Shown piece by piece: positions 24,401 through 64,000 of a DNA stretch of 64,000 bases. The position numbers and the translations under genes are program-made. The stretch is from NCBI GenBank assembly GCA_014706295.1, contig JACSVZ010000010.1:20240501-20304500 (forward strand), in the 5' to 3' direction. Source of the stretch: Lycocorax pyrrhopterus obiensis (lineage: Eukaryota; Chordata; Aves; Passeriformes; Paradisaeidae). The number at the start of each line of letters is the position of its first letter. Position 1 is the first letter of the stretch. The notes beneath the pieces were generated by a model that saw only the letters and a program-made list of their open reading frames with translations, made no database searches and was not told the DNA's origin.

Positions 24401-27178
24401 TCCTGGCTGGACAGTGCTGTGGTACAGTGGTACCCAAGGCTTTGTGGGGCTGATATCCACACGTGGGTCTGCTAGGGAAGGCTGGGTGAGAAGCACTCTG
24501 ATGCATGGCCTTGGGTGTGTGAGAAACCAACACTTTTCACCCAAACCACCATTTTTCCAGTCGGTGTCAGGCCCCAGGTCTTACCGAAGAAGACAGCCAG
24601 GACAGTTGTGTTCCTTTGGGAGGGCAGCCCCGAGGGTCCCCGTGCCACCGCGTTGCTGAGCTGGCGAGCGTTGGGCACGTGGGGCTCCTGCAGTGCCTGG
24701 TAGACGCCGTCCGCGTAGTTGGCTGGCAGGAGACGCAGCAGCCTGGCCCCTGCAGCACCAAAAAACAAGGAATGGATTCTGTGGTACCCAGTGGGAGGCA
24801 CAGCCACAGTGGGATACACAGATATGTGTGCAGGTCCCAGAAGAGGGTCAGAGGATAGCATAGGTTCTTAGAGTGGCCAAGAACAGGCAAGTTTTGGTGT
24901 CATCACCCAAAGCTTCTTGCAACACTGGTATCAGTCCTCTTAAAACCAGGAGGGATCCTCCATCCTCCATCTTCCTCTCTTCCACTTGTCCTTCTCTTGT
25001 CTATGTGCATCCCTGTTGCCTCCTGGAGGTCTGGGGTGGTGCTCCAGTGGGTAACTGGAGCGATGCTAATGTCCCATGTTTACTGTGCAATCCTACACGT
25101 GTGGTGTTTGCCAGCACCACAGGGAATGGGAGAGGGAACAGCCAGAGAGGCAGCGAGACAAGTGCAAAGATGAGAGAGAAACACCCTGACTTTGCATGCA
25201 CTGCTGGTCCCAAAACTGAAAAGCCCAGAGGCAGGAGGTAATTTCTCACTGGCTTGTCACCAGTGTGGTGGGCTCCATTTGCTGGAGCTCCCCAGAGCTG
25301 GGGGAAATCCTGAATTTCTGCCTTAGTTTGTGGCTTAGTTTCCATATGTCAGTTTCCAAAAGTTAAGGTCTGACCCGTTTGCTCTAGAAGAGGAAAACCT
25401 GATCTGCCAGGGCTGGTTTTCTCTGGCAGGCTTTGGTGTTACTAAAGGGCTGGTGACACACGTCATGTGGGAGAGCCCTTTGGACTCAGAGGAAGCTGAG
25501 CAGCTGCCACTGCACCTTGTGCCACTGTGTCACCAGAGCAGTGGCCAACCTGGGCTGCCAGAAATGAAGATTCAGAAACTTCAGTGTTTTATATAAGATC
25601 CTGTCTGATCTGTCCTGGTCCCTGGCTCAGGGATATCTGGAGTTGAGCCCATGGGCTGGCTGTAGGCATGAGGAAGCGGTTTACCACTGGCAGAGGGAAA
25701 TCCTGAATGCCTCTCCCAGTACCAACCAGTACACGGTATCAACTCTGTGCAGGGCAGAAAATCAATAGGTTCAGCATTCCTGGACCATGAACCCTTCCAC
25801 CTTGTGTTGAATCCTGGTTGAACTGCACATTGATTTTGGCTAAAGATGTTTTTTTGCAGCACTGGGATCCCTGACCATCACAGAAACACCTGCTGGAAAG
25901 AGCTGGGTCCTCCCTGCCTTGGATATTCTGAGTGATCTCACAAAGGCACAGCTTTGCTCTGGGACAGATCCAACACCAGCATGACCTGCAGATTGTGCCT
26001 GGGCAGCAGCTAAAGGTGGCAATGCCCAGACATGGGCTGCCTGGCCCCTCCACACTTCTCTATCAGGGCTCTCAGGTGCTTCTAGGGTCTAGAGGTCTAG
26101 CTTCAGTGGTCTGAGGGCTGTGGGAGGTGGCATTGTCTGCTCACCTGCCTGGTTCAGGCTCAGGTCAGAAAGGTTTCTGTCTCAGCCACAAAGCAAGCCA
26201 GATGCGCAAGGGGCAGCTCACCTCGCCCCATCCCACCATTCCTGTCCCCAGGCCTGGCACTCACCCACGGAGCCATGGCTGTGGTGCAGCAGGTTGTTGT
26301 ACCAGCCATCATAGCGCTGGACCTCCCAGGAGATGCTCTCCTGGGCTCCTGGAAGAGACAGGACCCACTTGATGAGCAGCAAGAAAAAAGCATGAAACAA
26401 GCATCACCACTAGAGAATTATATTTATATTGTGATCTTTTCCCATATTCTTTCTGCAACTTCCCAAATATGCAGTTTTTTAGACAAGTTTTGCAGTCCTT
26501 TTGAGGGACAATAGCTAAAATCAGGAATTTGTGCTTGTGATCCTGATGTCCCTAGATCAATTTGTGGCCACCACCAGTCTAATCCCAAAAGACATTCCTT
26601 TTCTCTTTCTCTCTCACTGGATCAGAAACCTCTCCTTACTTCTGACTCCTGCAATGTCCACATGAGCCAAGGAAAGATCTTGGCTCTGGAGTTGCGCTTT
26701 TTTGTCAGCATCAGCCTTATTTCCTTCGTGTTAATTTTTATTGTTTTTACTTCTACTTTTTACTTTGCTAATACTAGCAAAGAATTCCAGTTCCTGCTTG
26801 CAAGCTGTGTACTCATCTCAGCTGCAGCAGGGCAGTCTCTCAACCTGCACTTGGCTCCAATTTTTTCTTATCTCTTCACAAACTGCATCATAGAATCATA
26901 TAATCATAGAATTTGGGTTGGAAGGCACCATAAACACCTGGTTCCATTCACCCTGCCATGCCATTCACACCTTCCACTAGATCAAGTTGCTCTGATATGA
27001 TGCCCTGTGGGTCAGAGGAAATTCCCTGGAGGGGCATCAGCTACCCAGGATCTCCCCTTGGGTTCCCTTCCCAGAAATCGCACTTACTCCCCAAGGTCCA
27101 TGTCGCCACCAGAACCACAACCAAACTCAGCATCATTGCTGCAGGTTGCATCAGCCACTGGGTCTTTGGAAGCAGCAT
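9496..27178 (-). CDS. DUOX2: Dual oxidase 2 (calcium-activated NADPH oxidase producing H2O2), complete
   Basis: This is a membrane oxidase that passes electrons from cytosolic NADPH through FAD and two haems to O2, releasing H2O2 outside the cell for thyroid hormone synthesis and mucosal defence. I followed 33 coding exons with AG/GT ends and matching phases from ATG (27178-27176) to stop (9498-9496). Together they give 4641 nt, or 1546 aa, against about 1548 in mammals, with no internal stop. The order of parts is: signal peptide (about residues 1-30), peroxidase-homology ectodomain (about 30-590), first membrane segment (about 597-620), two EF-hands (loops 833-844 and 869-880), a six-helix haem-binding ferric-reductase core, FAD motif YHPFT, NADPH motifs GGGIGVTPF and CGPPGM, and the conserved terminus HHYENF. 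Synteny next to SORD and head-to-head with DUOXA2 says DUOX2 rather than DUOX1. Exon coordinates are given in the three block entries. Confidence 0.95.
10520..10580 (-). mobile_element. CR1 3'-end fragment (DUOX2 intron)
   Basis: The sequence 'agaatcacagaatcagattgg' followed by 'gagatcatcaagtccaacc' is the reverse-oriented terminal part of CR1. It sits about 30 bases downstream of exon 30. Confidence 0.7.
12880..13318 (+). mobile_element. CR1-family LINE fragment (DUOX2 intron)
   Basis: It contains 'cataaactgg', 'gggaaaggctgagggaaatgg', 'gcttgttcaggctggaggag' and a 3' end 'cccttccaacctcagtgatcc', all typical of CR1 subfamilies. It lies antisense to DUOX2 between exons 23 and 24. Confidence 0.75.
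14373..18255 (-). other. DUOX2: DUOX2 coding exons 15-22: first membrane helix, intracellular loop and EF-hands
   Basis: Exons: 18142-18255, 17332-17534, 16952-17137, 16302-16527, 15608-15701, 15233-15408, 14915-14984, 14373-14468. Exon 15 finishes the first transmembrane segment ([12 protein letters not shown]) and turns into a basic cytosolic stretch. Exon 18 holds EF-hand 1 with the canonical loop [12 protein letters not shown]. Exon 19 holds EF-hand 2 with the loop [12 protein letters not shown]. All calcium-ligand positions are acidic or polar as expected, which supports calcium control of activity. Exons 21 and 22 are short and diverged ([13 protein letters not shown], then [18 protein letters not shown]). 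This is the least conserved part of the family, and here the assignment rests on splice sites and phase. Confidence 0.9.
17845..18080 (-). mobile_element. CR1 fragment (DUOX2 intron)
   Basis: Reverse-oriented CR1 3' part: 'ggatgattcaggatggaagg', 'ttgcccaacatcctgcccaa', 'agcaggaccagcca'. It ends about 60 bases from coding exon 15. Confidence 0.75.
24058..24168 (+). mobile_element. CR1 3'-end fragment (DUOX2 intron)
   Basis: 'gatcaaggccaggttgaacag', 'ggtcccttccagcccaaac' and 'ttctgggattttatgat' form a short CR1 tail on the plus strand. Confidence 0.8.
26887..27000 (-). mobile_element. CR1 3'-end fragment (DUOX2 intron)
   Basis: 'catagaatcatataatcatag' and 'tttgggttggaaggcacc' are the terminal repeat and tail of CR1 on the minus strand. 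It lies about 90 bases from the DUOX2 start exon. Confidence 0.85.
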
Positions 27179-33509: not shown

Positions 33510-36500
33510 ATGACTCTCTTTGATGGCGTCTACCCCTTCTACCCGCAGCAGAGGAAGGCTGCTGTGTTCGACATCAGGACCATCATAGTCATCGTGGTCT
33601 TCCTGACGCTGGCTTGCAGCTTTCTGCTCATCATCCCAGGCATCCGTGGACGGGCGGTGCGTGACCCTGGGGATGGGCAACTGCTCCCCTTGTTCTGGAT
33701 GCTGGGACCTTCCCAGGTGGTTCAGGGTGAGGCAGGAGGAGAGCCAGGGTTGCTCCTCCTTGCCTGATGTCCCACCTCTCTCCCTGCAGAGGTTGTACTG
33801 GACCCTTCGTGTTCTCCTCAGCCTCTTCGTGGGAGTGGTGATTGTTGGTGAGTGCTGCGCAGCCCTCAGGGATGGGTCTTGGGGCAGGATTAAACCCTGA
33901 GGCAGGGTCTGTGTCTGGGAAATGTGAGCTGGGGGTCACAGCCACGGCTGGTTGTGGGGTTCTACCTTACACCTGCTCTGCAAAGCAGTCGCGCGTCTTC
34001 CCAAAATGGCTTTCCCTTCCCTGGTATGGGGGCTGAGGGCACTTGGAGGTGCCCATGGTTACTTCTGGGAGCTTTGCTGGCTGTAACTCAAGCAGCCCCA
34101 GCTCCATCAGGCTGCACAGCTCCACATTCCTCCGACCGTGTGTGTGACCTGACACAGACAGGGTGCAGAAACAACCACAAAAGTGAGGATGAAATGCAGA
34201 GAGCAGATTTATTTTCATTACCTCACCCTCGGGGGGATCCCCAAAGCAGCACTGGGCAGGGACAAAGAGGGGACCGGCACCACGGAGCTCAGTCCATGCC
34301 AGAGGATCACCAAACCTGATGTTTTCACCTGTATTTCAGGGATTTGTGCAGGTGTAGTTCACTGATGTACTTTAATCTTTTCTGTAGCAGGGTAGGATCT
34401 CAAGCCTGTTAAATAGGTGCTTCTGAGCTGTCTAAACAGACATGTCCACTTCTCCAACACACAAGGCTAGACAGTGGTTACTGTGATCTCTGGGTTTTTC
34501 TACACCCCAGCTACACATCGGTTGAGTGTGTTTACAATCCTCCTCACCAATTTTCCATTATTTCCCCCACTATGTGAGCCCTCTTGTGCTGCCTGGGGCT
34601 GCAGCCAGGACGCTTGGAGGATGTGAGGAGCCTTGCGGTGATGTGGAGGGAGCAGGTCGGAATAAAACACAGGCAGGGCAGAGGTTGCAGTAGTGGGGTA
34701 AAGACCTCCCAAGGAGCAAGGTCAGAGGAGATGAAGGAGAGGATTTAATTTAGTAAAACCCAGGAAATCTTCTGTAATAACTAATGGTGGAAACCAGGCA
34801 GTGGGATTTCCAACTCGGACAGGGCAACAGGATGGGTAAGAAAAGACACGCTGAGGGGATTGAAGATGACAGGTGGTGGGAGAAACCAACCCTGACCCTA
34901 AATCAAAGAATCCCTCCTGCTATGAAGGACAAGATGGATTACAGGACTGCTCAGAAAGGGATGATGAAGGGATAGGGATAATGATAACCTAAAAGATTTT
35001 AGCCCTGATTTGGCCAGGCACTAGAAGCAGGTAGCCAGACTGGGACCAGCTGCAGGATACATGGGCCATCTGGCACGCAGTTGCCGTCCTGGGGGTGTCC
35101 AGGTTCTGGGAGACGCCACCAGAGCTGCCTGGGAACCAGGCTGGAGGTGGCAGAGGGGTGGAGGCCAGGGCTGACTCCACAGCCCCCTATCCAGGTCAGC
35201 CCTGTAGAGCCATCCAGCCCCACTCCCTGACAAGGCTGCAGCCGGGCTCTGCTTGGGCACATGGGAGGAATGAATTGTTCTGAAGCCAGCGTCAGACTTT
35301 CTGTCTGGCAGCAGCAGGGCACACTCACTCCTGCAGCCAAAAAGCATTCCTGTGGAGCTCCCACTGCATCAGTGCCCTCACAAGTTGACTCAGTAACTGA
35401 ACTTTTTCTCAGGAAAGTTTTGTTCACCCTGACATCAAATCATCGGCTTTACTTTCCTGTTGGAAAATGAAGCCCACTGCAAAGTGGAAGTGCTTCAGAA
35501 AAGGATACCTTGTGCCAAAAAACATAAACCAGAAATGCTTCAAATTTTTCTTTTTCTCCCAGCTGGAATGACTGACTGAGCTGTGATGACACTTCCCACC
35601 CCTCTCCACTGCCTGCATTTGACAATGACCTTTACTATTCACTAATAGTCCAATTTAGGGAGCTGAATGTGTGAAATGAGACTCACCCCTGTTCCTGTGG
35701 CTGACAAACAGGCTCATCTCTGAGCCTCGTCCCTGGGGGCTGTGGTGCTTGCCATGGTGGGGAGCTTGCAGGGAGGTTCTGGAGAGGATGTCCAAGGAGA
35801 AATCAGGTCATGATGTTCATCCCTGGGGATCTGAGCTCTGCTGCTCCCGGATCCAGGGAGTGGATGCTTAGCAAGGGGAGGATCTGAGCTCTGCAGGGTG
35901 TGGGAGCTGGTTGGGGCACATCCTGGTGGCTGAGTCAGCACTCCTGCCCTCCTAACACTCCCTTCCAGTGCCATGGTGGGAATGCTGCCACTCACCTGTG
36001 ATTCTCCCCTTGAGCACAGCAAGGCCTGAAACTGGACCTGCTTTAACCCCAGCTTTATTTTTCCTGGCAGTTGTCCAGTTCACAGGAGACTGGGAGACGG
36101 GCTGGGTGCAGGCAAACACCTCCTACAAGTCCTTCAGCCCTGTCCAGGTGAACGTGGACATCGGGCTGCACATCGGCCTGGCGGGGGTGAACATCACACT
36201 CAGGGGTGAGTGCATATCCCAACAGGAGAGGACTGGCTGCAGGTTTGGCCCCTGTGCACCTGGATACTGGGGCTGTGGGCCCCGCATCAGGAAGCCTGGG
36301 AGCTTCCTCCAATGCTGAGGAAAGGTCCTTAGTCTTCATCACCTGGCAGGAAACCCAGTGAACCAGATCAACGAGACCATCAACTACAACGAGCACTTTC
36401 CCTGGAACTTCGGAGCGGATTATGACCGCAGCTACAGCGAGGGGCTGGAGAAGGGGCTGCCCAGCCCCATCCTCTACGTGGCAGAGAAGTTCAGCACGCA

Positions 36501-38458
36501 GAGCCCCTGCGCCGTGCACAGGCAGTACCGCATCGCCGGCCACTACGCCTCAGCCATGCTCTGGTGAGCCCTCCTGTCCTGGTGAGCCCGCCCGTCCTGC
36601 TGCGGGCGTGGGAGATGCAGGGATGCGAAGGCCTTGGCTGCCTTTCCCCTGGGCCTTTGGGATGGGTGGGATTGGATCCTTCTGGGAGGGAAGCTGTGTG
36701 CATGGAGGGGTCCCTGCCGGGCACTGTAGACACTTTAGGATGAGCAGAGAGGAAGTCCTGGTTCTCTCCGCTGGGTAAATCCAGCAGGGCTGAGCACAGG
36801 AGAGAGGAACATGGTGCAGGTCCTTGCTGTGATGTGGTGATGATGGCAGAAGTCCATCCCCATGGATGAAGTTGAAGCTGCTGTCCTTAGTAGCCCAGAG
36901 AGGCCCATGGACACATGAAGAACTCTCCCAACCTCACCTGTGAGTGTGTTTTGTGCCTAAGATTGGGATCATGTGAGGAAAAGATGCTGCTGCTGTTATT
37001 GTGGAGTTGACCTTGACTCCTTGGCAAGGTCAGACATATGTCACTGCCCACTTGGGCTGGGCGAGAACTGGTCCCCAGCTGACAGGAGATGGTCCCTTCC
37101 ACCACATTATCGGCCATCAAGAGCCATTGCAGTGCTGTTCTCCCTACTTGGTGTTTGACAGCAGGGACACAGAAACTAGGAAAGGAGCCTGGCGATGCCA
37201 TGGAGCAAGACCTCCTGGTCCGTAGCTGAGGGCTTCCTCTGTAGCCCAACTCTTCAACAAGTGCAGAGCTTTGCCTGCTCCTGCATTTATCTCAGCCCTG
37301 GGTGCTGCTCTCAGGGTCTGTGCTGCCCCACATGTGGAAGGGCAGGGAACTGGGATGGTCCAGATACACTGAGTGGGCTGCCACAGCCTCCTTGGGGCTG
37401 GTTCTGTCTGTGGGCTGAGCAATGGGAAGAGGAAATCTATGTTTCTGCCTTTTGGGTGCAGCAGTGGGAGCCTTGCACATGTGCTTGCTCAGTGTGGGGA
37501 TTAGGGATCATTCCTGCCTGCCCACAGAGCTTCTCCACCTCATACAGTGCACTCTGGAGCCCAGATTCCTCCTCCCACATGGAAGTCCTCACACAGAGCA
37601 TCCTAATCCGTGGCACTCGCACCACTCATCTGTTGGTCTTCTCTTGTCTCCAGGGTAGCCTTTTGCACATGGATTATCTCCAACATCCTCTTCTCCATGC
37701 CCGTCCTCGTTTATGGAGGATACATGCTCCTGGTCACAGGGGCCTTCGTGATCTTCTCCCTGCTCTCGTTCTCCACTGTGAGGAACTCCCCGATGTGCCT
37801 GATCCAGATTGGGACCGGGACCCTGCACGTAGCCTATGGGGGGTCTTTCTGGCTTGTGCTAGCAATTGGTAAGAACATCAGGGTGCCCCAGGCCACATCA
37901 CTGTGTCCCTCTGGATATACAAGAGTCCCAGTGCTTCCCTCCCAGGTGAAGCCAGAGCCCCAGCCTGTGCCTTGGCAAAGCAGATCCTGGCAGAGATGTG
38001 GAGAGGGATAGGAAAATGGGGAACACCATCTCAAGGGCAGTGGAGGCATTTATAATTCCTGAGGTGCAAAGATATTGGGATCACTTGCCTGGGATTTCAG
38101 ACTGTGCCTGGGTTTTAAGATGCTCAGAACAGCTCGTACAATAGAAGGCGACCTTCCATAAGCAAAGGCATTGTCCTCTGGCAGGGGACCATCCGAGAAG
38201 AGCTGTTGGGTGGGGACAGTGGTGGAGTGACAGGAACCAAATCAGAGAGCATGTTTGTTTCCAGGCCTGCTCTGTTTTGTGGCTGGGATCACCATTGTGG
38301 CAATGCACCACCTCAATTTGGACCTGCTGAAAGCCTTCTTTGATCTCCGTGAGGACAAAGCAGAGGAGTACCGGGAAACACCTGAGGTGTTCGCCAACCC
38401 TCATTTCGTGAACAAGGGCCTGTCTCCTTCTCAGCCCTCTGAAATCAACAGCCTCTAG
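33510..38458 (+). CDS. DUOXA2: Dual oxidase maturation factor 2, complete
   Basis: This multi-pass membrane protein binds DUOX2 in the ER and is needed for its glycosylation, surface delivery and H2O2 output. Coding exons are 33510-33656, 33790-33847, 36071-36205, 36350-36563, 37654-37868 and 38265-38458. All have AG/GT ends and consistent phases, giving 320 aa, the family's usual length. The N-terminus is [12 protein letters not shown]. Membrane segments lie near residues 24-44, 51-70, 185-205, 206-226 and 253-275. The large extracellular loop (about 70-183) holds N-glycosylation sequons NTS, NIT and NET and the motif [17 protein letters not shown]. The start is preceded by 17 bases of UTR after an acceptor at 33491-33492, so the 5' UTR is spliced. 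It is head-to-head with DUOX2, which identifies it as DUOXA2. Residues about 79-180 are nearly identical to DUOXA1 at DNA level. Confidence 0.95.
36100..36548 (+). repeat. Inverted-repeat arm 1 (DUOXA2), shared with DUOXA1
   Basis: It covers most of exon 3, the whole 144-bp intron and most of exon 4 of DUOXA2. It matches the reverse complement of 46154-46602, base i pairing with 82702-i. I saw one mismatch, T at 36155 (GTG against GCG). Identity stops sharply at 36099 and at 36549. Confidence 0.9.
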
Positions 38459-39174
38459 AAGAAAGTTCTCACTCCTTCCCTGAAGATGGACCCAAAAGGG
38501 CAGATCACAGACTCTTCTTGATGTCCCCAGAGACACATTTCCCCATCCTACTGCCTTTGAAGTCCGCATTGGGATAGGTCCTCTCTGGGAAGTGCCTTCA
38601 CAGACTGTATCTCCCTGGCAGTGCCCTCTGGAAGGGGCAGGCTGTTCTGGTGGGCTGCCAGCAGAGCAGCTCACAGCTCCAGAGACTTGAGCTGCACAGT
38701 CACCTGGGGATCCCTCTCCCAGGAGGAATGCCCTTCCTGCTCCGTGCCCTGCCACAGCGCAGTGCAGGGGTTCTCCAATGGTCTGTTCCTGCTGAAAATG
38801 AGAAACAGCTCATGGGTGACATTTCACCCTGGGAGTGCCTGCCACTCCGAAAGCGAGGGATTAAACCTGCCCATTTCTTTCCCAAACATGACGTTTCATG
38901 GTTTAGGTGTATCCAGGAAAGCCAGGCGTGGATCCAGCTTCTGCAGGCTGGATGCTGCAGGAGCTGGAATGAAAAAAACTGCTCCAGAAACAAAGACTGA
39001 GTAAATGTGCCACAGAGCTTGTTGTGGGGGATGTGGTGATGTGATTCTTTTCACTTTCAAATTTGGCCTTTATTAGACAAAACTTGCAGCCTAGTGTGTG
39101 CCAAAAAGATGTCATAGGAAAGAAAGGAGAGAGAAGAATGAAGTTATCCCTGTCCAGCTGGAGCAGCAGGGGAG

Positions 39175-39700
39175 GGAGGGGAACCTGTGCCTCTGCCCCA
39201 CTCAGGTGAGACCCCACCTGCAGAGAAGGACGTGGAGCTGCTGGAGAGAGCCCAGTGGAGGCCACAGAGATGCTCTGAGGGCTGGAGCCCCTCTGCTCTG
39301 GAGCCAGGCTGGGAGAGCTGGGGGTCTTCAGAGAGGAGAGAAGGCTCCAGGGAGAGCTCAGAGCCCCTGCCAGTGCCTAAAGGGGCTCCAGGAGAGCTGG
39401 AGAGGGACTTGGGACAAGTGCCTGGAGTGCCAGGACAAGGAGGATTAACTTCCCACTGCCAGAGGACAGGATTAGATGGGATATTGGGAGGGAATTCTTC
39501 CCTGTGAGGGTGGGGAGGCCCTGACACAGGTTTCCCAGAGAAGCTGTGGCTGCCCCTGGATCCCTGGCAGTGCCCAAGGCCAGGCTGGATGGGGCTTGGA
39601 GCACCCTGGGGTAGTGGAAGGTGTCCCTGCCCATGGCAGGGGGTGAAACGAAATGAGCTTTAAGGTCCCTTCCAACTCAAACTATTCTGGGATTCTGTAT
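39175..39700 (+). mobile_element. CR1 LINE 3' end (downstream of DUOXA2)
   Basis: It shows 'actcaggtgagaccccacct', 'ggagccaggctgggagagct', 'gtgcctaaaggggctccagg' and the tail 'cccttccaactcaaactatt'. It is one of the best-preserved CR1 copies in the window. Confidence 0.9.
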
Positions 39701-39870
39701 CTGCATGCTGGAAACCTGGGCACCTTCATTTCAATTAATTGTAAAGTACATAATTTCAGTATTTTGACTTTTCTTTCTGAGAAAAGACCCTTGCTGGTAA
39801 GTTACTTTTTTTCTGTCAGATGATATTTGTGTGTCACTAGCGTGGTTTGCTCTGCGCAGGAATTATTTTC

Positions 39871-39876
39871 AATAAA
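39871..39876 (+). terminator. Candidate DUOXA2 polyadenylation signal
   Basis: AATAAA here is the first canonical plus-strand signal that I noticed after the DUOXA2 stop. It would give a 3' UTR of about 1.4 kb containing a CR1 copy. A second group lies near 40440-40455, so the true end is uncertain. Confidence 0.4.
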
Positions 39877-39899
39877 ACTTTACTAAAACTCCTATCCTT

Positions 39900-41700
39900 T
39901 GAAACACTGTGGATATTTGGGGGGCTGGTTTCTTAAGGAGGGGCCATGGGGCACAGCTGAAGGTCTTGCACTTCTGGCAAGCCCCCAGCAGCAGCATCCT
40001 TCCCATGGGGGCGAAAGTCTCACTTGCACATTTCAAGGTCAGCCACTAAGAAATCTTTGTCACGAGGAGCTGTGAAGAGACAGGAGAGCCTCAAAAGGAC
40101 TTTAACTGGCTGAGAGCTGGGACCAAAGCTGTAAGATTAAATTCCCTTAGACAAAGGAGGATCCTTCCTTGAGAATTTCTTGCATCCAAACACATCAGAT
40201 CTGAAGGCCCTGATGGGAAAATGGTACACCCAACCACAAATTATTGGGGCTGGTATGGGACAGAACCCATGATCTGAAGACACAGGAGGCTGGGGGGTTT
40301 CCCAGCCTTTTGGCCATTGCCTCTGGCTCTCTCCAGCCTCATCTCCTGCTTTAGGGCATGATTCCTACCCAAGAGCATCCTCATCAGCAGGAAAACTTTG
40401 TCCTCTTGTATCAGACATACAGGAGCATGAACCCAAATAAATAAAGCTTAAATAAAATTTGATCTGTTTGAAGCACCAAGACACCAGATCTCTGTGTGTC
40501 TTGTCTGCTTCCTAGCAAGCACAGGATGGCTGGGATTTCTGCAGCAGGTCCTGCACGGGGCCAGCTGAGCTGTGACAGTGACATGATGGGGGATGCAGAG
40601 ACCCTTCAGGCACTGCAGGGGCAGGTCAGGACAGACGGGGCTGGCTGTGTCACGGGGATTGGCCGCCTGCAAGAACACGTGCAGGTGGAGGGGTTCTTCC
40701 CTTGGCTCCACACGGACGGGCACAGCCAGGGCTGTTGCTCTGGGGTGATTATTTGCCTCACTAGGTCGCAGCAGCTTCTTCAGTTGCCCTGTAAGAGCTG
40801 TAGTTGAGCAGCCCCTGCATTGTGCTGCTGCAGGTCCCACCTCCTCCCTCCACCGCAGCTCCCAGCTCAGTTTCCTGGCTGGACTGAGGTGTTGTTGGAC
40901 AACAAGAGGTAAAATGGTCACCACTCAATCCCCGGCTCTTGGCCCATGTGGACTCTGACCTCTCAGTGTCCAGGGAATCTGGCATCCAGCCAGAGTCAGT
41001 GCCAGCAATGGAAAAAACACTGTGAGCATCTCAGGGAGCGCACCCTGGGGCTCTGCAAGGACCGTGGTCCCCTGCCCTGGTGGCACTCACTGCAACCACC
41101 ACGGCATCTGGCAGGCAGCCACTGCCCTGCTCCCCAGGCAGGAACACACCAGGGAAAGGTTTGTGAGGCCTGAATTTCAACTGACTAAATCAAAGGCATT
41201 TGTTGCACCTTGGATCTAGTCCATCTGCAGGCTGAAGCATCTCCTGATAGGTGTCATTGGGAACATCCCAGCTGAGATCTCCCAAGCTGAAGGAGTTCAG
41301 CTCCAAACCCTTTTGGGTCCTCTAGGTTCTCATTGAAGGCTCTTCTCATTGGAATGGGATGGGAGAGGATGCCATGGCTGAGTTCCTCCTCCCTAGAGGG
41401 CCTGGCCCATGGTGGTTCCTCTGCAAACCTCTCTGTGGGGCTGGATATTTCTCCCATCAAACCTCCCACATGCTCAGGGGCACACCAGGAACTAAAGTCC
41501 TCCCATATTCCCCCTGCTTGTTTGCTGGGGATATTCCAATACGCTCTTTAGGGTGCACTGACTTGGCTTCATTGCCCTGCACTGGCTGGCCGTGGTTAGG
41601 TGCCCCATTCAGGACCACAAAAGGTCTCTGCCTTTTCTTTATTCCTTCCCTGTGGCTGCCATGTCACAGCAACAGCCCTCAGAGGGACACCTCTATCAAC
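39900..41700. other. Intergenic stretch between DUOXA2 and DUOXA1
   Basis: No gene is visible. Open frames are short and not supported by splice sites or recognisable protein. Confidence 0.5.
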
Positions 41701-41727
41701 AGGCAAGTGAAAGGCTGGGTCAAACAT

Positions 41728-41733
41728 TTTATT
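41728..41733 (-). terminator. DUOXA1 polyadenylation signal (AATAAA on minus strand)
   Basis: TTTATT on the plus strand lies about 810 bases past the DUOXA1 stop. The stretch between them contains no other gene and is read as 3' UTR. Confidence 0.5.
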
Positions 41734-42540
41734 GAGATAGAAGGGAAAATAAGCGAGCACAAAACATAAAAAAAGTTGTGAAACCCTGAGAGAGGTAAGG
41801 GGGGCAAAGCTGAAGCGTGCACCCTCTCTGCCAGTGTGGACAAGGGTCCTGCTGGCTGCCAGCAGCCTGGAGTGGCTTGGACAATTCTGCCTTGGGCGTG
41901 CAGAATTTCCGTGTCTCTTGCCCCTGACATGAGTATTTCCACAGCTGAGCAGGAGGAGCCCAGACTGGAGGTGCTGCTCCCCTCTCCCTAATTGGTTATA
42001 GCTGATCTCCAAGGCACTGTTGCACCTCCCTTCCCACCTCCTCCTCTCCTTCCCCCCCCAAGCCTGGTACCTCCAGCATCCTACTGTATCATATTCCTCT
42101 TTGCCATCCTGCTCTTCACCCCAGACCAAGAGATGTTTGGTACAGGGCACCCTGGGCAGCGCAGCTCCATCTGCACTTCCTGACTGCTGATGGGAAGAGC
42201 ATCCAAGGGCAAGGGGACTTTTTGAGGGTTTTCAGGGTGAGGGGGCTCTTGTGGGGGCTCTACTTCTCTTTGGTTCATATCTATGAGTCTGCAGTTACTT
42301 GCTTTCTCCCCAGTTTGTTCCAGTTTAATCTCTGTGTCCTGGGGAAGACTCAGGGATGGACAGAGGGGAAGGGCAGAAAAACAGAAAAAAAAAAGGCAAA
42401 CTGTTGTATTTGAGACACCTTTTCAGATTTGGATATTCTCATCACTTGGCTCTTGTCATGTCTCTTCCCACCTGGCCTCTTGATGGATTTGGTGAATTAA
42501 GGAGCAGCATCTCCAGGCCTTGCCCTGCCTCCCCTGTGCC

Positions 42541-45500
42541 TCAGAGCTGGGTGGCTGTCACCTGGCAGAGCTCACCCAGGGGGACCATGAGCACATCCTG
42601 TGCAGAGCAGCTGGGCTCAGCTGACAGGCAGGACTTGTCCCACACCTCCTCTTTGCTGCTCTTGTCCAGGCTAAAGATGAGTTTCAGCTTCTCTGGCTGC
42701 ACGGAGTTGAGGATGATGATGCCCAGCCCCAGGAGCAGGCACAGCAGCCCTGCAATGCACAACATGCAGTGACACCACTGGAGGAGTCCTGCTGGGTCCC
42801 AGCTCCATCCACACCCAGCTGGACACGAGGGACGTGTGCCGTCACCTGGCACGTCAGGGGAAGGTGTTGATTTCTCTTTCCCCATCTCGATTTTAGCATC
42901 ACTTTGGGCTCCCCAGTACAAAAGAGAGGTCCATAAACTGGGGCAGAGAGTTGGAGATGGAGCCCACTGTGCATAGGGAAAGGCTGGAGGACCTGGGCTT
43001 GTTTAGCCTGAAAAAGAGGAGTATCCAGAGGGAATTCATTACCATCTGCTTCTGGAAAAGGTCTGGTATCCCTGGAGGTGGATGTCATAGCACGGAAAAT
43101 TCTGGTTTGAAAGGAAACAATTGCTGCCCGCATGTGGGGCAGGTCCTGAAAGGCAGAGGGAATCTCTATCCAGCAGGGAACTTCAGACATTCAGATCTCT
43201 TGACTGCTCATCTCTTTTTCTCCCCAACCTTGATAATTCTAATCTAAAATCTTCTAACCCAAAATTATCATTTTCTGTGACCAGCCATGGAGAAAGAAGG
43301 GATGAGGTGCTGTTGGGGCATCATCTCTGTAGGGATGGACAAGAAAAGCCCCAGAAGCAAGCTGAGCACTCACCTGTCACTCCTGTCAGCCAAAAGGATT
43401 CACCATAGTCTGTTCTCAAGGAAACTGGGCCGAATTGGATGGGGCACTTCGGGGTGTTTCTCGCAGTGAAGAAGAAGAGCAGTGAGAAGAGGATCAGAGC
43501 GGCAGTGAGCAGAAGCATGTGGCCACCATAGAGCAGGATGGACATGGAGAAAAGCAGGATGGAAGTGAGCCATGTGCAAAAGGCCAGCCTGCAAAAGGAC
43601 CACAAAACCGAGCAGAAAACATCAGGGTTAGAGTATCTACTCGGGGTCTCCTCTCCATATCCCAATGGAGGGATAAAGCCCTGGGCAACCTGGTCTAGCT
43701 GGCCTTGCTTCAGCAGATAGCTGGACAGCCTAATCTAAAGAGGTCCCTTACAATCCAAACAGTTCTGTAATGACATGAGTGCTGGAGCTGTGGGACAGAT
43801 CCTGCAGCAGTGCAGAGGGATCTCCACACCTGGGAACATTCAGTGTTGAATTCCCTGAAGCCCCCAAGCACCTTGGTATGGCTTTGGCATCAGCCCTGCT
43901 CTGAGTGTGGGACTGGAGTAGAAATCTCTGGAGGTTCCTGTGAGGGACTGAATTGTTAATGTTTAGTATCTCAAATATTTGGCCATTTGCAGAGGCAGCA
44001 GATGCTTTGCTGGGGCCGGGTTTTCATCCCACGGAAGGGGGGAAGGAGGGGTTTTGGGTGTGTGGTGGCAAACCCTCTGATGTGCATCAGACAGCGGACC
44101 CAGCCCAGAAGCTCTTGGTTTTGAGCCCGATGAGGGAGAAGGCTGATAAGAAGCAGACCCTGGAGAGGCAGGGTGGTGTTTATTATCATTCCAATGTCCT
44201 CCGTTACACAACTGACTCAGCTGGAAAACTCGCCCTTCCCGCCCGTTCATACGGGACATTTTTCCCGTTCACACCTCGGCCTGAGGGTTTTCATCCCTTC
44301 TGAAGGGGCAGAACCGATTCAACGCTGGCATGAGAGGCAGGGTCATGTCTTAGAAGGGATCATAAACCATTAAAGATCCCTGAAGTGCCCGCAGGCTCTC
44401 AGAGCCCTTCCACCAGAAAAATACACCTGATCCACAGTGTTGCAAAGGGTAAAAGTCACCCTGCAGGGAAGGTACCGGGGCATTCCCACCTAAACCTGAA
44501 CCTGCATTGAACTCTGAGTTTCATGGCACCCCCACCACTGAGAAGACCAGAAGAAGAGGATCAATGGGACACTGTCTGGTTCCATGGGTGGTCATATTTT
44601 TTACTTAATCTGTCTCTCTCTCTCTCTCTTTCCTCCCTCCTTTCCTTTTCTATTTCTTTCTATCTTTGTCTACCTCATATTTACTGTGACATAAAATCCA
44701 TAGTCGACTTCAGCATATGGTCTCATTTGCACCTTAATTTGGGCAGAGGCATCTCTCTAATAATCGGATCTTAACAGTCCCTCCAAAGTAACTTTTTTTT
44801 CTGATTCTTGTGATTGTCCACAACTGGTCACCCCCAGGCAGTTCCCACATGTTCAGAGGAACAATGGCATCGAGGGACACCTTTGTTTGGAGAACTGCAC
44901 CATGAGCTGTGCCTGGACCTGATTCAGCACCTGGAGTGCACCCAGCTGCCAGCCCTACCCTGTGCTTGAGGCTTGGGTTTAGCTCCCTGGGGGGTGAGCC
45001 TAACAAATTTTTCTGATTTCAAGAAAAAAAACAAAAAAGAAGTTTTTGTGAACACTTCTGCTTTGAAGTACAGGAATGTTTGGGTGGGGATAATTATTTT
45101 TCCTGAAAATAAAAAAGGAGATGGGTACAGGGACCTGGAACCTACATTCAGGGGGGAGTTGCAAGGCTCGCTCTTCCCTGCGGTGCCTTTCCCACCACCT
45201 CTGAGAATCGTGGGGGTGTTCTGAGATTTCACAATCACAACGCACACAAGGGCTCTCAGCTTCATACCAAGAGATGAGCTCTGAGCACCCTCTTGATGGT
45301 CCCTCCTGCTCCCCTTGGGCAGGTCTGTGCCCACTTGGATGTGCAAAAGAAGACCCTTCACAGCATGTCTTAACTGGGACTCTTTATCTTGGTCCTTGGG
45401 AGAGATCTCGAACCATGAGCCCCACAGCTGCGTCTGTTTTCCCTTAAATGAAGAATAATTCTTCTCAGACTACAGTTCTGTACATCAAGGCAGGGGACAC

Positions 45501-48300
45501 ATAAGAGGAGTCTGCAGACATAGACAAAAGATGCTCCAAGGGCTGGAGCCCCTCTGCTCTGGAGCCAGTCTGGGAAAGCTGGGGGTGCTCACCTGGAGAA
45601 AAGAAGGCTCTGGGGAGACCTCAGAGCCCCTTCCAGGGCCTAAAGGGACTCCAGGAGAGCTGGAGAGGGACTTGGGACAAGTGCCTGGAGTGCCAGGACA
45701 AGGAGGAATAACTTCCCACTGCCAGAGGGCAGAGTTAGGTTGGGTATTGGGAAGGAAGTCATCCCCGTGAGGGTGGTGAGGCCCTGTCACAGGGTTCCCA
45801 GAGAAGCTGTGGCTGTCCCTGGATCCCTGGAAGTGTCCAAGGCCAGGCTGGATGGGACTTGGAGCACCCTGGGATAGTGGAAGGTGTCCCTGTCCATGGT
45901 GGGGGTTGGAGCAACATAAGCTTTAAGATCCCTTCCAATCCAAATCACTCTGTGATTCCACAATTCTATGAATCTGTGACAGACCAGGAAGCATGAAAAT
46001 CCCAGACTCTGCAGAAAGCCAAGGCTTTGGCATGGCCTTACAGCAATGAGGGTGACTCCATAAAGCTTCCTCTGCTGTCCCTGGTTCTTTCCAGCTCCCC
46101 ACTGTGTGGGACAGGGCTGACCCCTCGCTGTAACTCACCACAGTGTGAGGGATGCGTAGTGGCCGGCGATGCGGTACTGCCTGTGCACGGCGCAGGGGCT
46201 CTGCGTGCTGAACTTCTCTGCCACGTAGAGGATGGGGCTGGGCAGCCCCTTCTCCAGCCCCTCGCTGTAGCTGCGGTCATAATCCGCTCCGAAGTTCCAG
46301 GGAAAGTGCTCGTTGTAGTTGATGGTCTCGTTGATCTGGTTCACTGGGTTTCCTGCCAGGTGATGAAGACTAAGGACCTTTCCTCAGCATTGGAGGAAGC
46401 TCCCAGGCTTCCTGATGCGGGGCCCACAGCCCCAGTATCCAGGTGCACAGGGGCCAAACCTGCAGCCAGTCCTCTCCTGTTGGGATATGCACTCACCCCT
46501 GAGTGTGATGTTCACCCCCGCCAGGCCGATGTGCAGCCCGATGTCCGCGTTCACCTGGACAGGGCTGAAGGACTTGTAGGAGGTGTTTGCCTGCACCCAG
46601 CCTGTCTCCCAGTCTCTGGTGAACTGTACAGCTGTGGAGACTTCAGGAGTTAGTTACAGCCCGGCAGCAAGATGTCTGGTGCTGGAAGCACCTGCCAGGA
46701 CAGTCACCATTGTCTGAGCATCACCTACCTCATCCCAAGGTCAGGACTGGGCTGTTAGCCCCAAGGGGCAAAGTCCTGTATGTCCTTCCTCAATATCAAC
46801 CCCGGCCCATGACCCTGAAAACCTCACTTGGATTGGTTTCTCCCCAGCCCTGGTGCAGATCCTAACCCTGGAGGCAGTGGGGCTGATGTGTGGGCACTAT
46901 CTGGGCACTGCTTCTCATCTAAGCCCCTGCCAATTTGCCTGAACCCCCTGGAAGCTGGTGGTGAGCTTTTGGTGACTGCCCTGGATATGACCACCAGTTT
47001 TCAGACTGGAGACAGATGGATGCCTGCACCTTCCACCAGTTGTTGGAACCAGGCCCCAGACAAAAGACCTGTGTCCATCTTCCCCATGAACTCATCCTAC
47101 AGGCTGGTCTTGGCCCTTGACTGATCTATTCATCCTTCCCCACCCTTCCCTTCCATGTCTTGGGCATCGACGAGCTTCCCCCCAGGACCCCAGTACTCAC
47201 TGAGGACCACTGCTCCCATGAAGAGTCCCAACACCAACCGCAGGAACCAGAAGAGTCGCTGTAAGAGGTGAGCAGAGTGGAGGGACAGGTCTCAGTCAGA
47301 TTTTGCCATGGGGACCTCAGGCACCAAGCATGTAATTTAGAAACATCAGATGGTGAGAAATAGACTTGTTCCTCCCCTGGGGAGTCACCCCATGTGCTTT
47401 GTGGGTGAGTGGCATGGGGGATACATGTGGCCAGGGCATCTCTGCCATGATGGGGGGGAGGCAGCAGGGAGATCCAGACAGAGGAAGGAGATCAAAACAA
47501 CCCACTGGAGAAAGCTATGACATCCCCTTTCTTGGGAAGGAGGGTGGAGACATTCCTCCCAACAGTCTTCAGCTGGAATTTCCACTCTTATCCAAACTTC
47601 ATGTTTGGGCCTGTTGACAGCTGGCCACAGCTGTAGGCAAAAGGAGTGACTGAGCATTTGTAGAGTGTCCCCTGGGGGACGGAAGCCCCTCAACCAGCCC
47701 TGCTGCAAAACCAGGCACACAACAAGCACCCGATGTGGCTCACAGCAGGGTCTGTTGGCCACACAGAGCCCAGCGAGCAGTGCTGGGACATGCCTGGTAC
47801 ACACCTCCCTCTTTTATTGAGGTTTCTGGGAAGGTGGAGTGAGATCTTTGAGCCTCACCCTGCTGCTTCACTCTGGTGAAATCATTCAGGCTTGTTCACA
47901 GAGAAATCCAGACAAGATAGATCTGGCTTCCTCAGAAATCTGGGGTGGTGGAGTTTGGTGTCTCTGGGATGGGTGTGCACGCTCGGATGGGCTAGAGCTC
48001 AGCCCCATGGCTCTCTAGAGATCCCAGAGCCCTCGCCCTGGACCCGTGGGCAGGTTTGCTTGCCAAGTCTGTTATCGAGGCTGGGAAGGAAGAGGAACGT
48101 GGAATGTGTTGGCAGGGACCAGAGGTCTGAACTGCCCCTGCCCCTCCACTTACCCCCCTGCCCCTGATCCCTGGCAGGATGATGATGAACATCACCAACA
48201 CGGAGAGGAAGATGGTGACGATGACAGCCCGGGTGGTGTCAAAGGGGAAGCAGGCATTGGCTCCAGGGTAGAAAGGGTAGGAGCCGTCCCACAGTGTCAT
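42541..48300 (-). CDS. DUOXA1: Dual oxidase maturation factor 1, complete
   Basis: This is a paralogue of DUOXA2 with the same role: ER maturation and surface delivery of a DUOX enzyme. Coding exons in transcription order are 48154-48300, 47201-47258, 46497-46631, 46139-46352, 43374-43588 and 42541-42749. The first five have exactly the same lengths as those of DUOXA2. Joined, they give 325 aa. The N-terminus is MTLWDGSYPFYP. The last exon encodes GLLCLLLGLGIIILNSVQPEKL followed by a diverged tail ending QVTATQL. The start exon begins at an acceptor eight bases upstream of ATG. Synteny (tail-to-tail with DUOXA2, facing the DUOX1 position) supports DUOXA1. It is intact by eye, although the neighbouring DUOX1 is decayed. 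Its extracellular loop is almost identical to that of DUOXA2, while the membrane helices and both ends differ. Confidence 0.94.
42928..43070 (+). mobile_element. CR1-family fragment (DUOXA1 intron)
   Basis: 'gggaaaggctggaggacctgg' and 'gcttgtttagcctgaaaaag' match the CR1 segment also seen near 12.9 kb. The fragment is diverged. Confidence 0.6.
43676..43775 (+). mobile_element. CR1 3'-end fragment (DUOXA1 intron)
   Basis: 'ccctgggcaacctggtctag', 'ggtcccttacaatccaaac' and 'gttctgtaatgac' form a CR1 tail. Confidence 0.75.
43980..44800. other. Possible LTR-like segment with (TC)n tract
   Basis: This is a block of unusual composition in a DUOXA1 intron. It contains paired 'cgggttttcatccc' and 'gggttttcatccc' strings, 'gtgtttattatcattcc' and a (TC)n tract at 44611-44630. 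It may be a retroviral LTR fragment. No ends or target duplication were found. Confidence 0.25.
45528..45970 (+). mobile_element. CR1 LINE 3' end (DUOXA1 intron)
   Basis: 'gggctggagcccctctgctct', 'gggcctaaagggactccagg' and the tail 'cccttccaatccaaatcact' followed by 'ctgtgattcc' identify a CR1 copy. It ends about 170 bases from the conversion arm. Confidence 0.88.
46154..46602 (-). repeat. Inverted-repeat arm 2 (DUOXA1), shared with DUOXA2
   Basis: This is the partner of 36100-36548. The intron within it (46353-46496) has the same length and sequence as the DUOXA2 intron. Outside the arm the two genes differ freely in both coding and intron sequence. Confidence 0.9.
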
Positions 48301-49210: not shown

Positions 49211-52200
49211 TGAAGTCACAGCTGTGTTTCTCCCGGTGTGTTTTAGAGTGCCCTCCTCCAAAGGCGGCTGGATCATCTAGCCTAACCCACAGCCGACCAA
49301 CCGCTCCGGCACTCCTGCTGAGCCCCAGGGCACACAGGGAAGCTACGAGCTGGCACAGTCCTGGGAGCGGTTTGCCTTCTTCTCCTTTACTTTTCTTGCA
49401 GAACAGTGAAAAGTCCCGTTCCATACGGCAGGAAGACCCTGGAGCTGCCAGGCCCCTGTGGATCCTGGTTCGAGAGAGCAGAGGTCTTCAAAGCCCTCAC
49501 CTGCACTGCCTGGTGAAGGTTCCCAGCTGAGATCATCGAGCACGGGCTGTGGCTGCGTGGCCTCCTTGATGACCCTGCTCCTTACTCCATCCTTGGTGGA
49601 GTTTCCCTGGGAAGGTCCTGGTTGAGCTACTGGTCACCAGGCAAGGTGACACAGTGACTGGCACGGGGGACCAGCAGAAAGGAATGGGTCTAGAGGTGCT
49701 CCCAGCCCCATTATGCAGAAGATGCTCAGGTTTGTAACCTGGCCACGGTGTGGCGATCATGGAAATTCAAGCTTTTGGCATTTTGGTTGGCTGAAGAAGG
49801 TTGTATTGATACTGAGAGGGACCAGCGTGGCAGAAACACTCTCCTGACCCATGTTTGGGGTCTGAAATTGGCACAGCCATGCCCTGGGTATTTTTTTTTT
49901 GTCCCAGTGAATGGACTGGCTGGGTGCCCACCCCCTTGGCAAAGAGAGGTAAAAACAAGTTTTCACTCATGCCCAACAGGAAATAAAGGCATTTTTTGGG
50001 CAAGGATTTTGCCATTTCCCCTCAAGTCCCCAAATGGTCCTACCCAGTCTGAACACTGAATCCCTCCCCAAGAGTTGTTTTAAAAAATTAAATAAAGGGT
50101 GGCAAGGGTGACATGGCTGGGGAATGCATGTGCAGAGATGTGCTGCGGAGCTGTCTGGTGGGGATGTGGCACCAGCTTCCACCTCTGTCAGCCTCTGCAA
50201 AGAAGAGAGAATCGTGGACTTCACAGCAAACAGAGCAGATCCTTAGCAGTGATCACATGGATACCCATGGGGCTTTGGACCTGTTGGAAAGGTGGAAACA
50301 CCTCTCCCTCCAGTGTGGGAGAGGATTACTGAGAAGGTGGGTGGTAACTGGCAGGATGAAATTAATCAAGGTGGGGAAGATGCAACCACATGAAGTGATG
50401 CGTGGGATGAGGGTCTAAACCACCCCTCTTTGCACTCCCTGGAGCTGGGAGAGGCAGCAGAGAGATGAGCCCTGCACTGGCTTGGATAAACCAAAGTGTG
50501 GAGTTTGCCTTCTGAAGGGATTGAGGCACTGTGGGTTTGGGGCTGTTCAGGTGAGCATCACAAACACGTCCTTTGGGGAGATACCCAACTGCCAGAAATG
50601 AAAACTAGGGAAAGGGAGTTCCCCTTCTTCTCAGCAACACAGGGTTTGTGTGCAAGGACATCAGGGGAGCTCCCAGAGCTGCTCTGGTTCCCTCATCTGT
50701 CCCCAGCAGTGATGGAAATGGGACGTGATGGTGACAGTGGGATGCTCCCCTTCCCTGAACTGCTGATGAGATCATATCCTGGGAAGTGTGAGAAAACTGC
50801 TTGATTTACCCCTCACCCAGCACTCTGCATATAGGAAGAGGCCATTATTAAACTTTGTGTTGGTGTTTTTTCCACCTTTTTAAATTTTAAATTTTAAATT
50901 TTCTGGGTATTTCTGCAGGTACTAAAGGTGTGTATTTCATCACACAGTTTTGAGGGAACATTACACGTTTTCCAGGGAGTTTCTTCTCCCACTGTCAGCA
51001 CCCTGCCCTTGCTGGGGCAGCCCTCTTCCTTGGGCAGCTTCTGCTTCACTCCCTCTGCAGAGATGGATCCCCGATTAAGGATGAGTCATTTGATCCAGGT
51101 CACCGGAGGGAGGTGGGGACGAGGGGAGAAGCACCCATCACCTCTTGTGCAAGCAGACGTTTAGTGCTGGATCAGCCGCCTCTCTCCATGCTGGGAAGTG
51201 CAGTGAGGAAAGAGTGGGTACATGCCTGGGCAGGGAGGTGATTTTGGGGATGGACCAGGAAGATTTCTGACCCATTGGAGCCAGAAAGACAGATGTGATG
51301 CTTGTGCCCAGGTATCACTCTGCCCCAGAGCTGTCCCCATCACCCCTCTGTTTTCCTCCCTGACAAAGTTGCAGCTGGGGCTGGGCTGGGACTCTGTTGT
51401 GATGAAGCCCGTCCCGTGGATCCTTGCCCAGGAATCTTTGCCACAGCTGAATGGCCCATGATGGAGCAGCTTGAAGGAAAGGATAGGAGGAAGGAAGGAG
51501 GGACTCCCTCTCATCAGTTCCACCTTGGTGAGCAGAGAGGCTGCCGTGGCCTTGGTTTGACTCTAGATATATTTGCAAGAAGGATCTATTTTCCCAGCTC
51601 TATTTGGAAGTTACACATTTTCAGAGAAGGAGAAGGTGTTGCTACCCGCTACACTGACCAGTGGGTTTCATATCTTATGATGGAGACAGGTCAGGTTCAA
51701 GTGAAAGGACTGCCAGGAGATGGAGGCAGATCTCAGCAGGAGCCACACAGCATCCTGGTGGGAACTGAAACAGGAGGGGTTTCAGCCACTCTTTGAGGAA
51801 ATCCTCATCTAGAAATTTTGTTGAGTGTTCAGCCCTCTGCCCCTTCCAAGAGCCATCATGCAGGAGAGGAACAAGTCTCTGGACATGGTCTGGACCTTCT
51901 GTGGCACATGACAGGAAGAGCATCTTGCTTTGGGTACTTGATCATCTCTACTTCCAGTCCCAAACAGCTCCTTTCAGCTTCTGCCAGTGTTACAGGTTTC
52001 CATGTGTTCTCAGAGATCCAGGGGACAGAAGCATAGCTGTCCCATTGCCCTCCCAAATATCTCTATCCCACCCAGAGACTCCATGTTTGACCCCATGGGC
52101 ATTACAACCCATGTCTGGGTGGGGAAGGGGCTGGGCCTGGTCCTGTTCCTTCCCTTGCCTTCCTGGGGCTACTCGGCTTGGATGAGGGTCTGAAGGTCCT

Positions 52201-53388: not shown

Positions 53389-53540
53389 GTCCTGGAGCAG
53401 GTTGCTGCCTCCCACACCAGCAGCATGGCCAGGCTGGAGCTGCTTCCTGAGGCCATGCTGGAGGCTGGTGGGCTCCCTTATCAGTGCCACCATCCTGGAC
53501 CAGTTTTTGCTGGTTTTGGCTTGAAAACACTTGGAACAGG
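53389..53540 (+). pseudogene. DUOX1: DUOX1 relic exon (equivalent of DUOX2 coding exon 12)
   Basis: After an intact acceptor (ATCCAG|GTCCTG) the sequence follows DUOX2 exon 12 (19657-19823, minus). Frame one reads MARLELLPEAMLEAGG, and after a one-base shift the next frame reads GSLISATILDQF. DUOX2 has [24 protein letters not shown]. Roughly 20 bases corresponding to RLRDSD are missing, an in-frame TGA follows (GGCTTGAAAACAC against GGTTCGAAAACAC), and the donor is lost. It cannot be part of a working DUOX1. Confidence 0.92.
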
Positions 53541-63826: not shown

Positions 63827-64000
63827 CTGCAACAGCACACACGGTTTGTCTGGGGGGACGCAGGGCTCCAGCTGAGCTGTCACCGGCCACCCTGCACCGG
63901 CACAAACCAGCAAGAAGCACTGAGTGACCTAATGCCCAAACCAGCTGAGTCCAGGGAAACCCAGAAATCCCAGGTCCTCACTCCGCATGGGATTTTTGGG

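Follow-up and report, generated by a model that had tools for sequence, protein, structure and literature searches.

A 449-bp gene-conversion tract between the inverted DUOXA2 and DUOXA1 genes of a bird, and evidence for its recurrence across birds

The DUOXA locus and its DUOX partners

The window (the whole 64-kb stretch of DNA analysed here) carries DUOXA2 on the forward strand and DUOXA1 on the reverse strand, two convergent genes of six exons each that lie tail to tail and encode maturation factors of dual oxidase (DUOX), an enzyme producing hydrogen peroxide. The genes and gene remnants were located as follows:

33510..38458, + strand: DUOXA2, 320 aa; exons 33510-33656, 33790-33847, 36071-36205, 36350-36563, 37654-37868 and 38265-38458; GT-AG introns
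42541..48300, - strand: DUOXA1, 325 aa; exons 48300-48154, 47258-47201, 46631-46497, 46352-46139, 43588-43374 and 42749-42541; GT-AG introns
10687..24747, - strand: DUOX2 gene body as located; open peroxidase-domain exon pieces at 24747-19380, and motifs near 16368 and 11056-10687 that we take to be EF-hand, FAD and NAD motifs
52026..52115, + strand: degraded DUOX1 relic; 50% match to the DUOX2 piece ex_b2 (E 2.7e-5)
53389..53537, + strand: degraded DUOX1 relic; matches of 57% (E 2.9e-6) and 69% (E 0.03) to the two halves of the DUOX2 piece ex_i, in different frames; blastn 79% over 127 columns

The gene models and the best protein matches agree with the names DUOXA2 and DUOXA1 given in the initial annotation. 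Among the best 120 matches of a longer list, the closest relative of the window DUOXA2 was DUOXA2 of Vidua macroura (92%) and that of the window DUOXA1 was DUOXA1 of Rhagologus leucostigma (95%), both species being passerines, which makes a perching bird the probable source of the window. Both window proteins matched DUOXA1 sequences of the PDB (E 2.3e-100 or better) and have the five membrane helices and the claudin-like loop of DUOXA homologues; the relatives listed for both carry PF10204.

DUOX2 was named by its position beside DUOXA2. Of eleven DUOX2 pieces used as queries, ex_b was rejected as an exon since it overlaps ex_b2 in another frame, and ex_f and ex_g are short and were read by eye. 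The other eight pieces, when joined, matched mouse DUOX1 (structure sequence, E 6e-161). On the DUOXA1 side, up to the window end at 64 kb, DUOX2 pieces gave matches no better than E 0.003 besides the two relics, and these remaining matches look like chance; EF-hand, FAD and NAD motifs were absent from the same side within the window. From these remains, DUOX1 appears to be a pseudogene in the bird of the window. Since two DUOX1 relics stand against the open DUOX2 pieces, both DUOXA loops probably serve one partner. A 2007 survey gives a single Duox in chicken, in the part of the text available (PMC1940245). One DUOX with two maturation factors is likely the condition of the bird of the window and perhaps that of birds in general; the suggested link to DUOX1 loss draws on the window and on this chicken statement.

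Repeats were observed at about 2.6-3.0, 39.2-39.7, 45.5-46.0 and 59.5-60.0 kb, which we presume to be CR1. Near the right end, an open stretch at 63498-63977 (- strand) contains AVAGHFMGKKS, which to our eye resembles the end of neuromedin B, and gave a Pfam Bombesin match just under the cut-off (E 0.0035, 17.7 bits, cut-off 18.1); a neuromedin B-like gene may have one of its exons here. Beyond 53.6 kb there are 98 open stretches of at least 60 aa, and a Pfam scan of 10 of these gave a single weak match.

A near-identical segment within diverged paralogues

The two genes share one segment, which had been annotated as a gene-conversion tract whose arms differ at a single base. Its parts are:

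36100..36548, + strand: converted tract, DUOXA2 copy; 448/449 identity, no silent differences
46154..46602, - strand: converted tract, DUOXA1 copy (inverted), from ungapped comparison and blastn
36155, + strand: single tract mismatch, T (Val97) against C (Ala97) at 46547
36206..36349, + strand: intron 3 of DUOXA2, 144 bp, same sequence as the reverse complement of 46353-46496
46353..46496, - strand: intron 3 of DUOXA1, same sequence as 36206-36349 (reverse complement)

Compared without gaps, 36100-36548 and the reverse complement of 46154-46602 have 448 of 449 bases in common, as annotated. The sole mismatch, T at 36155 (Val97 in DUOXA2, + strand) and C at 46547 (Ala97 in DUOXA1, - strand), is the only difference that changes the protein, and there are no silent differences. 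The tract comprises exon 3 from codon 79, the whole of intron 3 and exon 4 into codon 180, and the intron is the same over 144/144 bases, in line with the claim of equal length and sequence. The agreement stops at 36099 and 36549, with sharp borders into diverged, paralogue-specific sequence. The blastn match was wider than the tract (36068-36551, 98.6% over 484 bp), because a short, partly alike stretch lies 5' of it (exon 3, codons 69-78). The two inverted copies are 9.6 kb apart. At E 1e-5, blastn of the 64-kb window found no inverted similarity besides the tract, a match between the fifth exons (75%) and a match between DUOX exons (79%). The CR1-like copies at 39 and 45 kb have the same orientation (judged by eye) and so are not the inverted arms.

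Outside the tract the two genes are highly diverged. Coding differences amount to 1 in 303 bases in codons 79-179 and to 283 in 654 outside codons 79-180. Nei-Gojobori dS was 1.68 in exon 1, 2.56 in exon 2, 1.11 in exon 5 and 1.40 in exon 6. In exon 3, dS was 0.78 in the 10 codons before the tract and 0 inside it. In exon 4, dS was 0.02 in the tract part, a value due to a single difference in the third base of codon 180, immediately outside the tract, and 1.80 in the next 5 codons. Introns 1, 2, 4 and 5 gave no blastn match between the genes, only intron 3 being alike, and their lengths in DUOXA2 and DUOXA1 are 133/895, 2223/569, 1090/2550 and 396/624 bp, respectively. The annotated divergence of all flanking exons and introns was thus confirmed, and equal silent divergence inside and outside the tract was not seen. 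In the coding alignment, the longest run with no more than one mismatch spans 305 bases; over 10,000 column shuffles the maximum was 47 (none of the 10,000 as long).

The proposed recency of the copying also held: one copy overwrote the other recently in the window, where the tract has no silent and no intron differences. Zero differences at about 210 silent and intron sites give an upper 95% limit of about 1.4% divergence. Avian substitution rates are about 2-3 per site per billion years; with such general rates, this limit would make the latest copying no older than about 2-4 million years. The recency is real, yet short-read collapse could have erased a few differences. GC3 is 0.89-0.90 in the tract against 0.71-0.80 outside, while the GC content of intron 3 (0.590) falls inside the range of the other introns (0.500-0.632). 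Long antisense open frames cross both tract copies (36055-36549, - strand, 164 aa; 45997-46653, + strand, 218 aa) and most likely arise from the GC richness of third positions.

The segment covers residues 79-180 and, as annotated, the glycosylation sequons of the extracellular loop (84, 109 and 121). These sequons together with Cys167 and Cys233 are present in both window proteins, the three sequons and Cys167 lying inside the tract, and they are kept in 66, 69, 70, 70 and 70, respectively, of the 70 bird rows (window included). The structure modelled for the relative P0001 (mean pLDDT 75) has strands 77-133, two helices (138-148, 152-160) and the beginning of TM3 (helix 169-198) over the tract. 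The best structure matches of the model were human and mouse DUOXA1 (7d3e_B and 6wxu_B), followed by AMPA-receptor complexes with TARP subunits and by claudins. As the tract is the claudin-like loop, the diverging parts are the N-terminus, the membrane helices and the tail. In the human complex, the available text describes the TM2-TM3 loop as a claudin-like domain that touches both DUOX1 subunits and bears an ordered glycan on N109 (PMC7794343). DUOXA1 is glycosylated at N84, N109 and N121, pairing of DUOX2 with DUOXA1 leaves DUOX2 missorted, and a role in DUOX2 sorting is ascribed to the DUOXA2 C-terminal tail, according to the accessible portion of PMC11555622.

The segment in other birds and in mammals

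Protein searches returned lists of 696, 805 and 305 proteins, the best 120 of each being used, and the bird pairs came from the first two. Thirty-four bird species pairs were chosen by eye, so that species with both genes may be missing, and some rows are partial or misannotated at exon joints (e.g. Cyanistes DUOXA2, Lamprotornis DUOXA1). In all 34 species, identity between the two paralogues was 77-100% in residues 79-180, and 41-54% and 47-63% in the flanks. By part, it was 37-50% in exons 1-2, 51-74% in exon 5 and 30-43% in residues 256-285 of exon 6. The emu (Dromaius, 94%), the quail (Colinus, 98%) and the duck (Mergus, 94%) had high tract identities, the lowest being that of the owl Strix (77%). 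The comparison with other species proposed initially was made at the protein level, and the same segment was homogenised in these 34 further birds with nearly equal borders. Silent and non-coding homogenisation was observed in the genome of the window, the other birds being represented by protein data.

With the window included (35 birds), mean paralogue identity within species was 0.920 in the tract and 0.473 and 0.566 in the flanks. Mean orthologue identity between species was 0.834 (DUOXA1) and 0.844 (DUOXA2) in the tract and 0.81-0.87 in the flanks. In the tract, the two paralogues of one species thus resemble each other more than orthologues of different species do, as in concerted evolution, and the relation is reversed in the flanks. 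The own paralogue was among the nearest sequences in 37 of 70 cases in the tract and the orthologue in 36 of 70, so that for about half of the bird sequences an orthologue was as near as, or nearer than, the own paralogue. In each flank the orthologue was nearest in 70 of 70 cases and the own paralogue in none. Quick trees required 24 changes of gene label for the tract, against one (support 100) for the joined flanks; the tract value is what shuffled labels give on average (23.6), and six changes are required by the well-supported branches alone.

Site patterns in bird species pairs, which are not independent of one another, were 3674 species-type and 88 gene-type in residues 114-180, and 1209 and 404, respectively, in residues 79-113. 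In the flanks the corresponding counts were 84 and 12,399 (residues 1-68), 135 and 6881 (residues 186-255) and, in a third count, 78 and 6800. At the borders, residue 74 had 407 gene-type patterns, residue 78 had 90 species-type patterns and residue 182 had 352 gene-type patterns. Some paralogue-specific residues survive inside the loop, residue 103 having 210 gene-type and 20 species-type patterns. When partners were re-dealt among species, the tract gave 3285 own matches against a maximum of 3053 in 1000 deals, while values as high as those observed in the flanks occurred in 89 and 63 of 1000 deals and were not outstanding. The within-species identity, the mixed trees, the species-type patterns and the re-dealing together indicate that the homogenisation recurs deep into bird history. 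Exon 4 is the core of the homogenised segment, the exon 3 part of the tract having a lower likeness outside passerines (0.846 against 0.950).

The fifth exons (37654-37868 and 43374-43588) form a separate observation. They are 61-74% alike in non-passerines and 51-60% in passerines, above exons 1-2 and 6, and this likeness is perhaps a trace of an older, wider conversion.

Thirteen mammal pairs including platypus were compared, two of them built from sister species (Trichechus, Molossus). Two Myotis and Pipistrellus, with aberrant N-termini, entered the identity means and were left out of the site counts and trees. The platypus proteins (P0357 and P0352) were equal at 97 of 102 residues of the tract, with flanks at 47% and 62%, and concerted evolution may also be running in this monotreme. 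The 12 other pairs were 75-78% alike in the tract. In 10 mammal pairs including platypus, gene-type and species-type patterns numbered 124 and 55 in residues 114-180, and 198 and 41 in residues 79-113. Between species, loop identity was 0.85-0.87 in mammals and 0.83-0.84 in birds. Both DUOXA genes are reported absent from the giant panda in the part of PMC10458973 available; despite this, giant panda DUOXA1 entries (P0260 and P0264) are among the proteins listed (best 120 of 305).

The careful bird-mammal trees took 14 of the 35 bird species. In residues 1-78, DUOXA1 of birds and mammals formed one clade against DUOXA2 (100/99), which places the duplication before the bird-mammal split. With AU p-values of 0.114 for a birds-only clade and 0.054 for a swapped pairing, this great age of the two genes is supported, not proven. 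In the tract, a bird-mammal DUOXA1 clade was rejected (AU p 0.0002) and all birds formed one clade (100/100). In residues 181-290 the birds also formed one clade (97/95), with p-AU values of 0.264 for the normal pairing and 0.261 for the swap; either the exchange may once have reached further or the signal may be too weak.

Gene conversion, its possible causes and comparison with known systems

Gene conversion is the only good explanation for the tract of the window. We are highly confident that the 449-bp stretch is an interlocus conversion tract between inverted, convergent and old paralogues, and the latest of repeated rounds in exons 3-4. The conversion proposed in the initial annotation was therefore upheld, though not as a single event, since it appears as the newest round of a concerted evolution found across birds. 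At the protein level, the exon 3-4 segment was homogenised repeatedly in bird lineages and in platypus, as judged from the alignments, while divergence went on in exons 1-2 and 5-6.

Assembly collapse is a familiar risk where two inverted copies are nearly identical, and an artefact in which two more diverged copies were merged, or one filled the other, has to be considered. A modest collapse could have inflated the exact identity. Nevertheless, one internal difference was kept, both ends continue straight into paralogue-specific sequence, and the same segment is homogenised in the proteins of other bird assemblies, with lineage-specific residues; a purely artefactual origin is very unlikely. 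The idea that the loops stay alike with no exchange of DNA, through strong purifying selection or through co-evolution with DUOX2, has in its favour a strongly conserved loop (40 of 102 columns do not vary among 45 aligned proteins of birds and mammals), which contacts DUOX according to the available text of PMC7794343. The equality of intron 3 and of the synonymous sites speaks against it, the intron already refuting it for the window. Across birds, moreover, the shared residues are often species-specific, and orthologues (0.83-0.84) are less alike than paralogues within species (0.92), so that the chance left to this explanation is negligible.

Crossing over between the arms, with an inversion of 9.6 kb that swapped exons 5-6 and left the identity as a by-product, is permitted by the geometry and finds some room in the nearly equal p-AU values of the 3' half. 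It is hard to reconcile with the two flanks, for which the closest sequence was in all 70 cases the gene of the same name from a different species and never the own paralogue. No swap is thus visible among the 35 birds, and conversion alone explains the tract. A swapped 3' half was an early impression that the 35 birds did not bear out; as a weak rival, such a swap is highly improbable. The window by itself cannot separate one conversion from the last of many, but a single recent event with no wider history is contradicted at the protein level by sharing that is specific to each of several bird lineages and is found in platypus too, and is scarcely credible.

Recurrent interlocus conversion would proceed by homology pairing of the two inverted arms, either on one chromatid or on sister chromatids. 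The exchange would be seeded in the constrained loop, since the flanks are probably too diverged. The raised GC3 would be in keeping with GC-biased repair during conversion, to which the intron GC adds nothing. Conversion may be tolerated or even favoured in a segment that docks on DUOX. With DUOX1 degraded, both maturation factors would probably dock on the remaining DUOX2, and their diverged ends may keep separate roles.

Two accounts of why the conversion persists were weighed. Under a neutral cause the conversion is real and recurrent, exchange can start only where similarity is still sufficient, in the constrained loop, and it would go on with no benefit to the bird. The constraint on the loop, the largely lost homology of the flanking DNA and the raised GC3 fit this account. 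The mammalian loop is about equally conserved, yet gene-type patterns prevail in it, which tells against neutrality without being decisive; we give the neutral cause close to an even chance. Alternatively, birds would have been left after DUOX1 loss with one DUOX2 and two maturation factors, and selection-favoured conversion would keep the docking domains of the two interchangeable while their ends (N-terminus, membrane helices, sorting tail) stay different. Partner loss would then switch the pair from divergence to a concerted docking module, the opposite of therians with their two DUOX. This proposal is doubtful, and we place selection for a shared grip on DUOX2 somewhat behind the neutral cause. 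A matching DUOX1/DUOX2 conversion was absent from the self-comparison of the window, in which the other self-matches were mostly the CR1-like repeat.

The locus offers a clean natural case of module-by-module evolution, in which the binding ectodomain acts as one gene and the other exons as two. For practical purposes, exons 3-4 are an unreliable basis in birds for assigning DUOXA1 and DUOXA2 orthology, scanning for selection, mapping reads or placing knock-down probes. Should the tie to DUOX1 loss prove true, the locus becomes a testable example in which partner number decides between divergence and homogenisation of paralogues.

No report of gene conversion or concerted evolution of DUOXA was found in the open-licence literature. 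The DUOXA1 of the human and mouse DUOX1-DUOXA1 complexes (7d3e, 6wxr; PMC7794343, from the text available) shares with the bird proteins the family, colinear numbering, the claudin-like loop and the N109 sequon. Therian pairs differ from birds in that their paralogue loops are 75-78% alike, with mostly gene-wise divergence. The closest parallel in birds is given by TLR1A/TLR1B and TLR2A/TLR2B, in which gene conversion has homogenised some domains time and again and left others to diverge, and for which co-evolution with binding partners was suggested as an advantage (PMC3125219, in the passages available). Like DUOXA, these are bird paralogues with domain-limited conversion. According to the same passages, TLR conversion affects the C-terminal repeats, the membrane and TIR parts (and the N-terminus in TLR2A/B), whereas in DUOXA only the ectodomain loop is converted, intron included, between inverted and convergent genes. 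In mammals, exons and introns of the neighbouring paralogues BMP8A/B, DDX19A/B and TUBG1/2 have stayed alike for more than 100 million years; GC3 is reported to be significantly higher in DDX19A/B and TUBG1/2, and BMP8A/B is inverted (PMC2720389, in the excerpted text). Unlike DUOXA, which goes unmentioned in the available text of PMC2720389, these belong to other gene classes and to mammals. Domain-limited conversion and long-lived concerted blocks of exons and introns are thus already known elsewhere; the DUOXA case adds to them, and comes with an apparent loss of one partner gene.
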